Below the pieces are notes generated by a model, which worked only from the letters and a program-made list of their open reading frames with translations, searched no databases and was not told where the DNA came from. Source: an uncultured Thermanaerothrix sp. (GTDB taxonomy: Bacteria; Chloroflexota; Anaerolineae; Anaerolineales; Anaerolineaceae). Taken from it: 64,000 nucleotides of DNA. The stretch covers positions 124,001 through 188,000 of the forward strand of contig NZ_CALIMF010000012.1 of the NCBI RefSeq assembly GCF_938028735.1, in the 5' to 3' direction. How positions within the stretch are numbered: position 1 is the first letter of the stretch; every line of letters starts with the position of its first letter. Positions 10,859 through 15,457 of this stretch are shown one piece after another. Both the position numbers and the translations under genes were made by a program.

Positions 10859-11164
10859 ATGAGTATTTGGAATCTTCTGTCCCGAAAGCCTTTCCCGCGA
10901 GAGCGGCGGTCGGAGGTAGAGCGTCTGATCGAAGAACTGATTCAAATTGGACAGCGCGAGGACTTCCTCTCCGAACGCCCAGGCGGCTCATTCAATGCTC
11001 AGTGTAGGCATCGGCGCGCTTGTGAAATTGGTGCTCAATTGCACACCATTGGGGGCATTGCTCTGATGGAGTATGTAGTTAAGCGAGTGCATAAGCGCCT
11101 TGGGGCCACGCTAGCCACCCATTTGTCATATGCCTGGACGGATATTGGCGGGTGGGTGCCGTAA
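10859..11164 (+). CDS. Conserved-looking small protein, unknown function
   Basis: 101 residues from ATG 10859, chosen over the GTG at 10853 because AAGGAG at 10848-10853 sits 5 nt before it. Basic N-terminus (RKPFPRERRSEVERLIEEL) followed by a helical region with QCRHRRACEIGAQLHTIGGIALMEYVVKRV. The composition suggests a soluble helical protein. No motif with a known activity. It stands alone between the PIG-L gene and the Mn2+ riboswitch; whether it shares in metal homeostasis is not shown. Confidence 0.7.
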   Translation: MSIWNLLSRKPFPRERRSEVERLIEELIQIGQREDFLSERPGGSFNAQCRHRRACEIGAQLHTIGGIALMEYVVKRVHKRLGATLATHLSYAWTDIGGWVP

Positions 11165-11167
11165 GTC

Positions 11168-11195
11168 TTGACGAATTTGTGAAGCGGATTAAACT
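11168..11195 (+). promoter_or_regulatory. Promoter for the riboswitch-controlled P-type ATPase
   Basis: TTGACG (11168-11173), 16-bp spacer, TAAACT (11190-11195). The predicted transcript begins near 11202, immediately before the riboswitch aptamer. Confidence 0.55.
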
Positions 11196-11200
11196 AGAAA

Positions 11201-11300
11201 GACATTGGGGAGTAGCTGCCCAAACTACGGGGCGGGTTATCGTCAGGACGAAGCTTCGGCTTCCGGTAGCCCGCGCAATCAGCGAGACCATCACCAATTG
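11201..11300 (+). promoter_or_regulatory. yybP-ykoY-type Mn2+ riboswitch aptamer
   Basis: The two conserved halves of the yybP-ykoY aptamer are visible: GGGGAGTAGC at 11207-11216 and AGCGAGACC at 11281-11289. Between them are ATCGTCAGGACGA and a GGCTTCCGG-type arm. The family senses Mn2+ and commonly controls Mn2+ exporters, including P-type ATPases. The 3' conserved strand (GAGACCATC) also forms the left arm of the terminator at 11286-11318, so aptamer and terminator exclude each other. Metal binding would favour read-through into the ATPase gene. Confidence 0.88.
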
Positions 11301-11318
11301 GCGGGATGGTCTTTTTTT
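11286..11318 (+). terminator. Riboswitch expression-platform terminator
   Basis: Stem GACCATC (11286-11292) / GATGGTC (11305-11311) with a 12-nt loop, followed directly by seven T. Its left arm overlaps the conserved 3' strand of the Mn2+ aptamer, the expected arrangement for metal-induced antitermination. Confidence 0.85.
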
Positions 11319-11351
11319 GTTTGAATTCGTTTATCATGGGAGAGGATGTAT

Positions 11352-14135
11352 ATGGAAGAAAAGCCCTGGTATCAATTGTCGTCTCTTGAGGTTGCCAAGC
11401 AGCTAGAAACTGACTTGCGAAACGGTTTGAGCCATGAAGAAGCTCAGCGCCGCCTCGGCGAAGTAGGGCCCAATGAACTGGTGGAGCGGGGATTAAAAAG
11501 CCCATGGCGCATCCTGTGGGAGCAACTCACTGGCATCATGGTGGTCATTCTGATTATCTCGGCTATCGTCTCGGCCCTTTTGCACGAATACACCGATGCC
11601 CTAGTCATTTTGGTGATTGTTGTGCTCAATGCGCTTTTGGGGTTCTCACAAGAGTATCAAGCCGAGAAGGCCATGGCAGCCCTCAAAAAGATGGCCGTAC
11701 CAAAGGTTAAAGTGCGCCGTGCGGGGCATCTCATCGAAATCTCGGCACGTGAGTTAGTGCCCGGAGATCTCATTCAATTGGAGGCAGGGGACGCTGTGCC
11801 TGCCGATGCCCGACTCATTGAAGCGGTAAATCTACGCGTCCAAGAGGCAGTCCTGACTGGGGAGTCAGAACCGGTGGAAAAGCATGCCGAACCCATTTCT
11901 GCCGAGCATCTCCCGGTGGCCGATCAACGGAACATGATCTTTATGGGGACTGTGGTGACCTATGGACGGGGGATGGCCATTGTAGTGAGTACGGGTATGC
12001 GCACTGAACTGGGCAAAATTGCGGACATGATCCAGTCGGTAGGGCAGGAACCCACTCCGTTGCAGAAGCGCTTGGAGCAACTAGGACGAGGATTGGCCGT
12101 AGCTGCTTTAGGGATTGTGGCTATCGTGTTTGCCTTTGGGGTGCTACGCGGCGAGTCAGTTCGGGTAATGTTTCAGACGGCCATCAGTATGGCAGTAGCG
12201 GCTGTACCGGAGGGCTTGCCAGCAGTAGTTACTATTGCGCTGGCGCTAGGGGCTCAGCGAATGCTCAAGCGTAATGCCCTGATCCGCAAATTACCTGCTG
12301 TGGAAACACTGGGCTCGGTTACGGTGATTTGTTCAGACAAAACCGGCACCTTGACTGAGAATCGGATGACAGTTACAGTGATTGATGTGGCAGGTCATCG
12401 GATTGATTTTCAAGAGGAGGTTAACTATTATCAGCCGCAATCGGACTCAGTTTCGCTGCCACTGGTGACGACTCGCTCTTCGGTAGCTTTGATGTTGATA
12501 GGGGGGGCGTTGTGCAACGATGCCACCCTTGAACCGGCTGAAGAAGGCGGGCGGCATGGTTTCGCCGCTGTTGGCGATCCAACCGAGGGGGCGCTGGTAA
12601 TTGCGGCGGCACAGGCGGGTTTGCTCAAGCAAACTCTGGAAAGCTTCATGCCTCGCGTGCGAGAATGGCCGTTTGACTCCGAGCGGAAGCGCATGAGCAC
12701 TTTGCATCGGGTGGATTGGCAAAAGGAATGGCCATCAGAACTGAGCGCACTTGAAGAGCCGTTGGCCTCACTTTGGGAAAAACCCGTAGATTACCTTATG
12801 CTTACCAAGGGGGCAGTTGATTCTTTGCTTGAGGTATGTGATTGGGTCTGGGTGGATCATCAAGTCAAGCCCCTAGATGCCGGTTGGCGGGAGCGAATTG
12901 TCCGCGCCAATGACACGATGGCTCAGAGCGGGATGCGTGTTTTGGGAGTGGCCTTTCGTCCAGTGTGGGAGGAATCTGGAAAAGACCAGGTGAGCGAACT
13001 TGAGGAGTCACAGTTGATCTTTGTGGGCATGTTTGGAATGATTGATCCGGCGCGCCCTGAGGTCTTTCAGGCTGTTCAGGTAGCCAAAACAGCTGGAATT
13101 CGCCCTGTCATGATTACAGGTGATCACCCCCTTACTGCCTTGCATATCGCACGCGCCTTGCGCATCGCTGAAGATGGGCGCGTGATGACCGGTCAGGAAC
13201 TAGCGCAGCTTTCTGTGGCCGAACTCGAACAGCAGGTTGAAGAGATACCGGTGTTTGCGCGGGTTTCACCTGAACACAAGCTCAAAATTGTGGAGGCGCT
13301 GCAGAATCGTGGGCATATTGTTGCCATGACTGGCGACGGTGTCAATGATGCACCAGCGCTCAAGAAGGCGGATATCGGTGTTGCAATGGGCATTACGGGT
13401 ACGGATGTCTCTAAAGAAGCTGCGGATATGGTATTGCTTGATGACAATTTTGCTACCATTGTTGCCGCTGTTGAGGAAGGGCGCCGGATCTACGATAACA
13501 TTCGCAAATTTATCAAATACACACTTACCTCTAACGCAGGTGAAATCTTGGTCATGCTTCTGGGACCGTTTGCGGGGCTCTCTCTGCCCCTCACCCCTCT
13601 GCAAATTTTGTGGATTAACCTAGTGACCGATGGGCTACCTGGCCTGGCATTAACCGTCGAACCGGCCGAGCGCGATATTATGCGCCGCAAACCCTTCTCT
13701 CCCAAAGAGAATATCTTCGGGCGTGGTCTGGCTTTGAGTGTGCTCTTGGTTGGAATTGAGATGGGTCTTACTTCCTTGCTGGCCGGATTATGGGCGCTCC
13801 ACACAGGTCGCACCGAATCCTGGCAGACGATGATATTCACCACGTTAACTCTGGCTCAGATGGGAAACGTTCTGGCTATCCGTTCAGACCGTGATCCACT
13901 TATGCGTTTGGGACTATTTTCTAACCCACTGCTGCTTGCTTCGGTGGTGTTGACCTTTGCGCTACAAATGGCTGTGATTTATGTGCCATTCCTGCAAGCG
14001 ATTTTCCGCACGCATCCCTTGCCTCTAGTGGATTTGCTGGTCAGTTTAGCCTTTAGTAGTGTCGTCTTTTTGAGCATTGAAGCGTTAAAATGGGTGCGGT
14101 TGTCACGCGAGAAAGCCATCAATCTATCTGCTTGA
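11352..14135 (+). CDS. P-type IIA cation ATPase (Ca2+/Mn2+ exporter type)
   Basis: ATP-driven cation pump in the plasma membrane. In order it shows an N-terminal cation-ATPase segment ([13 protein letters not shown]), the actuator loop LTGES, the M4 cation site VPEGLPAVV, the phosphorylated aspartate in [10 protein letters not shown] (about residue 329), the hinge [18 protein letters not shown], and the M6 site NLVTDGLPG, a SERCA/PMR1-like pattern. ATG 11352 is preferred to 11346 because GGAGAGG lies 6 nt upstream of it but touches the first ATG. The yybP-ykoY riboswitch in the leader makes Mn2+ efflux the likely task, as for the YoaB-type pumps under the same riboswitch; Ca2+ transport is possible. 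lysA follows after 14 bp. Confidence 0.93.
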
Positions 14136-14149
14136 GGGAGAGGCCCCAC

Positions 14150-15457
14150 ATGTTATGGGAATGGTCGCTGCTCCCGCTCACAGCGGAGTGGGGAAGGGAG
14201 GGGTTGCAGATAGGGGGGTGTTCGGTGCCTGACTTGGTGAGGGCATACGGCACCCCTCTTTATCTCTACGATGCCGTTACCCTTCGCACCCAGGTGCAAA
14301 CCCTGGAGGAATTGCTTCGTGAGCATTACCCTGGGGAAGGATTGATCACATATGCCGCCAAGGCGTATTTCTCCCCAGCGCTGGCGCGTAGATTGGTGGC
14401 TTTAGGGCTCGGTGTGGACGTGGTTAGTTTAGGTGAGTTTCGTTTGGCCCTACGAGCCGGTTTCCCGCCCACGCATATTCACTTGCATGGTAACAATAAG
14501 ACGCTGGAGGAGATCGCTTTGGCATTGGAGATGGGAATTCAGGCTATTGTAGTGGATAGCCTGGATGAACTGGAATGGATTGAAACCATTGCGCAGGAGC
14601 GGGGCCAGGTGGCGCGTATCTGGTTGCGTATTACGCCCGGCATTGCGACCCATACCCATCCTCACATCCAGACCGCCCATGCACAGAGTAAATTTGGCCT
14701 TTACGTAGAGACAGGAGATGCGGCTTTAGCAATCCATAAAGCCCGGCACAGCCCTTGGCTGGATCTGCGGGGTCTCCATACCCATTTGGGTTCTCAGATC
14801 CATGATACCGAGCCCTATCAGAGAGCAATTGAGGCCCTGTTTGCTTTAGCCGAGCAGACCGATTATTTGCCCGAAGAGTTTAGCCCAGGGGGTGGGTGGG
14901 GAGTGCGTTATCAGCCCGAAGATCCGCCGGACAATCCGTTGCCCTGGGTGCGAGCTATAAGCGAAAGCGTCACTGCAGCCTGCAAGCGCCGCCACTGGCC
15001 GTTGCCGCGGTTGGTGATTGAACCAGGGCGCTGGTTAGTTGCTCGGGCAGGTGTGGCCATTTACCAGGTAGGCGCCCAGAAGCGCGCGGCAGATGGGCGG
15101 CATATCATAGCAGTGGATGGGGGGATGGCCGACAATCCACGGGTGGCGCTATATGGAGCGCGCTATGTAGCCCTGCCGTTGGGATACGAAAGTTATGAGG
15201 GCGATCTTTTACCTAGCCGGGTGGTTGGGCGTTTTTGTGAGTCGGGGGATGTCTTGATCGAAGAAATTGATCTGCCTCCACTTCAGCGTGGAGATCTCTT
15301 GGTGATACCCGTTGCTGGTGCCTATCACTTGAGCATGGCGTCAAATTACAATCTAGCCCCTCGCCCAGCGGCACTCTGGTTGGAAGACGGGCGGGCTGAA
15401 CTTCTGCAGCCCCGTGAGGACCCGCTGGCGTCATTGTGGTGGGGCGATGAGCCGTGA
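14150..15457 (+). CDS. lysA: Diaminopimelate decarboxylase
   Basis: PLP enzyme that decarboxylates meso-diaminopimelate to L-lysine. Fold-type III motifs are present: the PLP lysine in TYAAKAYFSPAL, HLHGNNKT, HLGSQI, the glycine loop PGGGWGVRY, EPGRWLVARAG, and the substrate cysteine region CESGDVL, with AVDGGMADNPRVALYGARY matching LysA. 435 residues from ATG 14150, which has GAGGGAGAGG upstream; the ORF-track start at 14090 would overlap the ATPase. A related arginine or ornithine decarboxylase is less likely given the DGGM and CESGD motifs. The link with the metal pump upstream looks like simple co-transcription. Confidence 0.88.
   Translation: MLWEWSLLPLTAEWGREGLQIGGCSVPDLVRAYGTPLYLYDAVTLRTQVQTLEELLREHYPGEGLITYAAKAYFSPALARRLVALGLGVDVVSLGEFRLALRAGFPPTHIHLHGNNKTLEEIALALEMGIQAIVVDSLDELEWIETIAQERGQVARIWLRITPGIATHTHPHIQTAHAQSKFGLYVETGDAALAIHKARHSPWLDLRGLHTHLGSQIHDTEPYQRAIEALFALAEQTDYLPEEFSPGGGWGVRYQPEDPPDNPLPWVRAISESVTAACKRRHWPLPRLVIEPGRWLVARAGVAIYQVGAQKRAADGRHIIAVDGGMADNPRVALYGARYVALPLGYESYEGDLLPSRVVGRFCESGDVLIEEIDLPPLQRGDLLVIPVAGAYHLSMASNYNLAPRPAALWLEDGRAELLQPREDPLASLWWGDEP

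Follow-up and report, generated by a model that had tools for sequence, protein, structure and literature searches.

A yybP-ykoY-class Mn2+ riboswitch ahead of a probable manganese-exporting P-type ATPase gene in Thermanaerothrix

The leader of a P-type ATPase gene in a 64-kb window (the whole stretch of DNA analysed here, 64,000 nucleotides) is very probably best explained as a transcriptional ON Mn2+ riboswitch that would drive expression of a Mn2+-exporting P2A ATPase. Ahead of the gene lie, in order, a promoter-like sequence, an aptamer, a hairpin followed by seven T residues, a Shine-Dalgarno-like sequence and the ATG at 11352. The aptamer, the terminator, the strand that the two have in common and the conservation of all of these among relatives are apparent from the nucleotide sequences. 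By sequence comparison, the window genome falls in the same genus as Thermanaerothrix daxensis (Chloroflexota, Anaerolineaceae): its ATPase protein is 92% identical to the T. daxensis counterpart, and that 92% copy is the one borne by G001, a genome listed under the same genus. The Thermanaerothrix isolate is a thermophile.

Class membership and anatomy of the aptamer

A sequence-only reading of the window had named the yybP-ykoY family and proposed, among its checks, a covariance-model search, with the lack of a hit counting as a refutation. A default Rfam scan of the window lists nothing, as the element scores 36.2 bits against RF00080 and the gathering score is 45 bits, which is a curated threshold and no biological feature. 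In a local scan the RF00080 match (11195-11349, plus strand) is significant (E 1.9e-8), and the element is the sole RF00080 match in the whole genome (E 3.0e-8). Applied at the Rfam default cut-off, which the element fails, the proposed refutation would have been misleading. In the same search, only two of the five well-known control genomes having a match passed that cut-off; among the relatives' genomes, it was exceeded in 0 of 61, and E ≤ 0.001 was reached in 4 of 61.

Assignment to the yybP-ykoY Mn2+ riboswitch class (RF00080), an established class whose target here is likewise of a known kind, is well supported because of a lineage-specific model, covariation and the recovery of distant members, and not because of the Rfam cut-off. 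Model R2, built from 14 relatives with the window and its genus left out, finds a single match in the window (11199-11291, 64.2 bits, E 8.4e-16). Both R2 and a 16-sequence model recover the mntP and alx switches of E. coli, neither of which had been used for training. Sixteen relatives, located ahead of orthologous ATPases or of other genes, were aligned; 86.7% of the cells of the named structure are paired, 19 of 28 pairs show two-sided changes, and the covariation score is 0.427 as against 0.213 for shuffles and at most 0.140 for slid alignments. Chance resemblance beside an ordinary terminator, in favour of which one could cite the score under the Rfam cut-off and the empty default scan, has a negligible probability and is refuted by the R2 E-value, the covariation and the synteny.

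The aptamer spans about 11204-11290. The two halves that the sequence-only reading had considered diagnostic are indeed in place, GGGGAGTAGC at 11207-11216, where it occurs once in the 64-kb window with both strands counted, and AGCGAGACC at 11281-11289. The former stretch (GGGGAGUAGC) holds the conserved L1 loop and the 5' strand of P1.2 and is invariant in the 16 sequences; the segment 11280-11290 holds the 3' strand of P1.2, GAGACC and the 3' strand of P1.1, and its GC.AGACC is likewise invariant in the 16. The window element thus has L1 GGGGAGUAG together with the 3' GAGACC/AAGACC strands that form P1.1 and P1.2, the latter helix being GCUG/CAGC by folding. The switch helix P1.1 pairs UGG (11206-11208) with CCA (11288-11290). 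Every P1.1 cell is paired in the 16 sequences, the outer pair being UA in 13 and CG in 3, and the outer position is paired in 65 of 66 wider relatives. In the window this helix comprises 3 bp only, the next position being U-U, and among relatives pairing is near chance past the first two outer pairs.

The P2 hairpin (CCC/GGG, 11219-11231) is indicated by folding and by two-sided changes among relatives. P3.1, L3 (UCAGGAC, 11243-11249) and P3.2 follow at 11232-11274, with paired cells of 95% for P3.1 and 97% for P3.2 and many two-sided changes in the 16 sequences; by folding, P3.1 has about 11 bp and P3.2 is GAAGC/GCUUC closed by a UUCG loop. Alignment to relatives puts a five-base linker (11275-11279) in the place of helix P4, which both Thermanaerothrix sequences (the window and T. 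daxensis) lack and almost all of the remaining 14 elements in the alignment have; short elements devoid of P4 also occur in other lineages. The four-way junction of the crystal structures (P1.2, P2, P3.1 and P4) is accordingly not found in the window element, and the sensing core is located elsewhere than P4.

That core bears upon the ligand, which the sequence-only reading had taken to be Mn2+. In known members of the class Mn2+ is contacted through the N7 of an adenosine, A41 in Lactococcus lactis and A48 in Xanthomonas oryzae (PMC9190785, PMC6754395). The L3 adenosine A11245 is invariant in the 16 relatives and, by its place in the L3 UCA, would correspond to A41/A48. Mn2+ is favoured by this invariance and by the Mn-export genes that sister switches precede. 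A related aptamer with a changed ligand, such as another divalent metal, could accommodate the restriction of conservation to the core and the fact that the pump family also carries Ca2+, but we consider it very improbable given that the Mn2+-contacting adenosine and L1/L3 are invariant and that sister elements lie upstream of MntP and TerC.

Promoter, terminator and proposed switching

A putative sigma-70-type promoter (TTGACG, 16 nt, TAAACT) lies at 11168-11195, identified in a scan with 9 of 12 matches as against 0.5 expected in shuffles. The predicted transcription start is near 11201-11204, such that transcription would begin a few bases ahead of the aptamer. The promoter of T. daxensis is nearly identical, and a -10-like hexamer is found upstream in 65 of 68 thinned relatives, its end falling most often 9-14 nt before GGGGAG.

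Folding predicts an intrinsic terminator hairpin at 11284-11318 (GAGACCAUC/GAUGGUCUU plus U7; -14.8 kcal/mol at 37 C), with arms GAGACCATC (11284-11292) and GATGGTCTT (11305-11313) and the T7 tract at 11312-11318. A simple terminator scan reported no terminator here, probably because the hairpin is bulged and has a long loop. The RNA from 11195 to 11318 folds 3.6 sd better than shuffles, the terminator pairs covary among relatives, and a comparable hairpin is present in 58 of 68 relatives. Its left arm overlaps the 3' strand of the aptamer (GAGACC), just as the sequence-only reading had described. Further support for this sharing comes from the base after GACC, which covaries with the base opposite it in P1.1 as well as with its partner in the terminator across 48 relatives with a readable terminator pair (T-A-T in 39, C-G-C in 5, A-T-A in 2 and T-G-C in 2). 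A base with two partners is the pattern expected of mutually exclusive antiterminator and terminator structures. In terms of layout, then, the window carries an expression platform that P1.1 would control, and the on-switch arrangement proposed earlier holds up.

In L. lactis, Mn2+ stabilises P1.1, the 3' strand of which otherwise joins the terminator (PMC11087558), and the switching mechanism has further precedents (PMC6754395, PMC9190785). By analogy, Mn2+-dependent read-through by antitermination is the best reading of the window element. At low Mn2+, CCAUC would quit the weak P1.1 and pair with GAUGG, forming the terminator and ending the transcript at 11312-11318. Mn2+ bound between L1 and L3, with A11245 as a contact, would dock the two legs of the aptamer; P1.1 would then hold, the terminator would fail, and read-through would allow the P2A ATPase to be made and Mn2+ to be exported. 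Energy models place the terminator state well below the state in which P1.1 is forced (-49.5 vs -36.4 kcal/mol), which is expected of any transcription ON switch without its ligand.

What counts against this overall explanation is a score beneath the Rfam curated cut-off, a 3-bp P1.1 with U-U next to it in the genus of a thermophilic isolate, the missing P4, and a pump that retains most SERCA Ca2+ ligands and may have Ca2+ as a main substrate. One could envisage a degenerate riboswitch in which the switch helix is not long enough to compete and what remains is a constitutive terminator or attenuator, and the short P1.1, the absent P4 and the strong preference of folding for the terminator would all fit. 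Yet a short P1.1 is the rule among relatives, the core positions are all intact, and T. daxensis retains both core and terminator despite changes elsewhere, and we regard degeneration as improbable.

The pump and its probable substrate

The gene thought to be regulated (11352-14135) encodes a P2A (Ca2+/Mn2+-type) P-type ATPase of 927 aa, as indicated by Pfam, NCBIfam-type models and structures. Its start is probably the ATG at 11352, behind the Shine-Dalgarno-like GGGAGAGG (11338-11345); a further in-frame ATG lies at 11346. The protein has the Cation_ATPase N, E1-E2, P and C domains (PF00689, PF00122, PF00690, PF13246 and PF00702), the DKTGT motif and the M4/M5/M6 ligand residues of P2A ATPases, and its closest solved structures are Listeria LMCA1 and SPCA1. 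Two neighbouring genes may be mentioned. Downstream, lysA (diaminopimelate decarboxylase, 14150-15457) begins about 15 bases past the ATPase stop on the same strand, with a lysA-like sequence at the equivalent place in T. daxensis, and it could share a transcript with the Mn2+-controlled ATPase. A 101-aa protein (10859-11164) is encoded just 5' of the riboswitch in the window, T. daxensis and genome G004 (94% identity in T. daxensis, 66% in G004), with zero Pfam or NCBIfam matches.

The sequence-only reading had also remarked that the protein sequence by itself does not reveal a Mn2+ pump, and we concur: the nearest database families are Ca2+-type and the Ca2+-site residues are mostly conserved. 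Neither the PMR1/SPCA-type Mn2+/Ca2+ equivalog TIGR01522 (735.6 vs a cut-off of 798.3 bits) nor the SERCA-type Ca2+ equivalog TIGR01116 (662.8 vs 703.4 bits) reaches its threshold. In alignment, the equivalents of SERCA E309, N768, E771, N796, T799 and D800 are conserved (M4, M5, M6), and the residue at the Glu908 position is Gln. Gln at this position was considered and rejected as a mark of Mn2+ pumps: it occurs in 29 of 38 switch-linked pumps and in 9 of 25 others, the remaining 9 of 38 switch-linked pumps have Glu, and the clade structure is strong. With the Ca2+-site residues largely retained and the E908 residue non-diagnostic, the substrate is best indicated by the regulator, and on that basis the pump probably exports Mn2+, which makes the earlier label of probable Mn2+ exporter a fair one. 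Ligand, direction of switching and pump substrate are all carried over from the riboswitch family.

The alternative that survives best accepts a genuine Mn2+ riboswitch but has the pump transport chiefly Ca2+, Mn2+ being a secondary substrate or signal. The Ca2+-type matches, both just below cut-off, and the retained SERCA ligand equivalents are compatible with it, and pneumococcal MgtA is called a Mn2+/Ca2+ transporter in the title of work cited in two papers (PMC9331361, PMC11434433). The window genome, however, contains two P2A ATPase paralogues with no riboswitch (L121 and L122); L121, with Glu at the position of E908 in place of the Gln of the window pump, is the better Ca2+ candidate. 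Mntp and Nramp have zero matches in this genome (88% complete); with Mntp unmatched, another Mn2+ exporter is needed. The genome also has one TerC gene, without a switch. On balance, a mainly Ca2+-transporting pump strikes us as a serious but unlikely possibility.

Relatives, targets and known systems

The element could be read at 72 related loci; at 58 of these a P2A ATPase gene lies no more than about 1.3 kb downstream, in most cases directly behind the element, and the genes downstream at the remaining loci include MntP, TerC, Na+/Ca2+-exchanger-like (Na_Ca_ex), Zn_peptidase_2, M48 and VTT-domain proteins. In a small number of cases a gene for an M50 peptidase, MpsC or a VTT protein separates the switch from the ATPase. 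Zn_peptidase_2-type genes stand behind Mn2+-riboswitch elements at L057 (by Pfam), L063 and L070 (by sequence likeness), and M48/HtpX-like genes at L059 (by Pfam) and as the second gene of L045 (by sequence likeness). At L062 the element is followed by an M50 gene and then the ATPase (by Pfam). VTT/DedA genes lie directly behind the switch at L106 and L117 and MpsC at L109, with the ATPase next in L109 and L117; the VTT and MpsC calls come from Pfam runs on L117 and L109. Among the papers searched, none connects manganese riboswitches with HtpX. In Vibrio vulnificus, yrbG is also under a Mn2+ riboswitch of the yybP-ykoY kind (PMC13274385).

Elements detected by the lineage model occur, in overlapping samples, in 44 of 101 genomes from the family, in 25 of 121 from the order and in 54 of 199 from the class. 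On the ATPase tree, the presence of the switch requires 9 label changes, 7 of them forced by well-supported branches, so the pairing of switch and pump arose or was lost repeatedly; a single origin is rejected, there being at least 7 gains or losses. A 2013 survey already counted yybP-ykoY among RNA motifs found in >75% of taxonomic groups, Chloroflexi being among the groups (PMC3766115), and the presence of the riboswitch in this phylum is therefore unsurprising.

The element is unusual mainly since the standard cut-off misses it and almost all tested relatives. At the default cut-off the Rfam model finds elements in 0 of 61 genomes, as against 44 of 101 genomes of that family for the lineage model (samples overlapping but not identical), and annotation relying on that cut-off will overlook the regulon. 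What is gained is a hypothesis on the substrate of a P2A ATPase that databases would label a calcium pump, from a group that has been little studied. The novelty is modest and lies in the lost P4, the brevity of the switch helix, the failure of the public model to see such elements and the metalloprotease genes found next to switches in other genomes. More broadly, and as a tentative proposal about which we are somewhat more doubtful than confident, the Anaerolineae may harbour a large Mn2+-riboswitch branch largely missed at the Rfam cut-off, in which P4 was lost several times to leave a switch that has a three-way junction and works in a thermophile through a switch helix of just 3 bp; the regulon of this branch would add membrane metalloproteases (Zn_peptidase_2, M48, M50) to Mn2+ exporters.

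Among known systems, L. lactis yoaB resembles the window element in L1 GGGGAGUAG, in the L3 UCA with its sensing adenosine, in the P1.1 3' strand common to the terminator, in the transcription ON layout and in its position upstream of a Mn2+-homeostasis gene (PMC9190785, PMC11087558); unlike yoaB, the window element lacks P4 (a three-way and not a four-way junction), has a P1.1 of 3 bp and scores under the Rfam cut-off. Rfam's RF02617 SSRC10 (Streptococcus sRNA 10) aligns at 37.3 bits with 11224-11318, covering the window aptamer's 3' half and the terminator, but is catalogued as an sRNA family; it is probably a terminated Mn2+-riboswitch leader. The two E. coli switches, of mntP and alx, recovered by Anaerolineae-only models, differ in controlling MntP and the TerC-family Alx and no ATPase. 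Streptococcus pneumoniae has a riboswitch-driven Mn2+-exporting P-type ATPase, MgtA (PMC9331361, PMC11434433), whose gene likewise stands behind a riboswitch of the same family; mgtA belongs to another phylum and has biochemistry behind it, whereas the window pump is known from its sequence.
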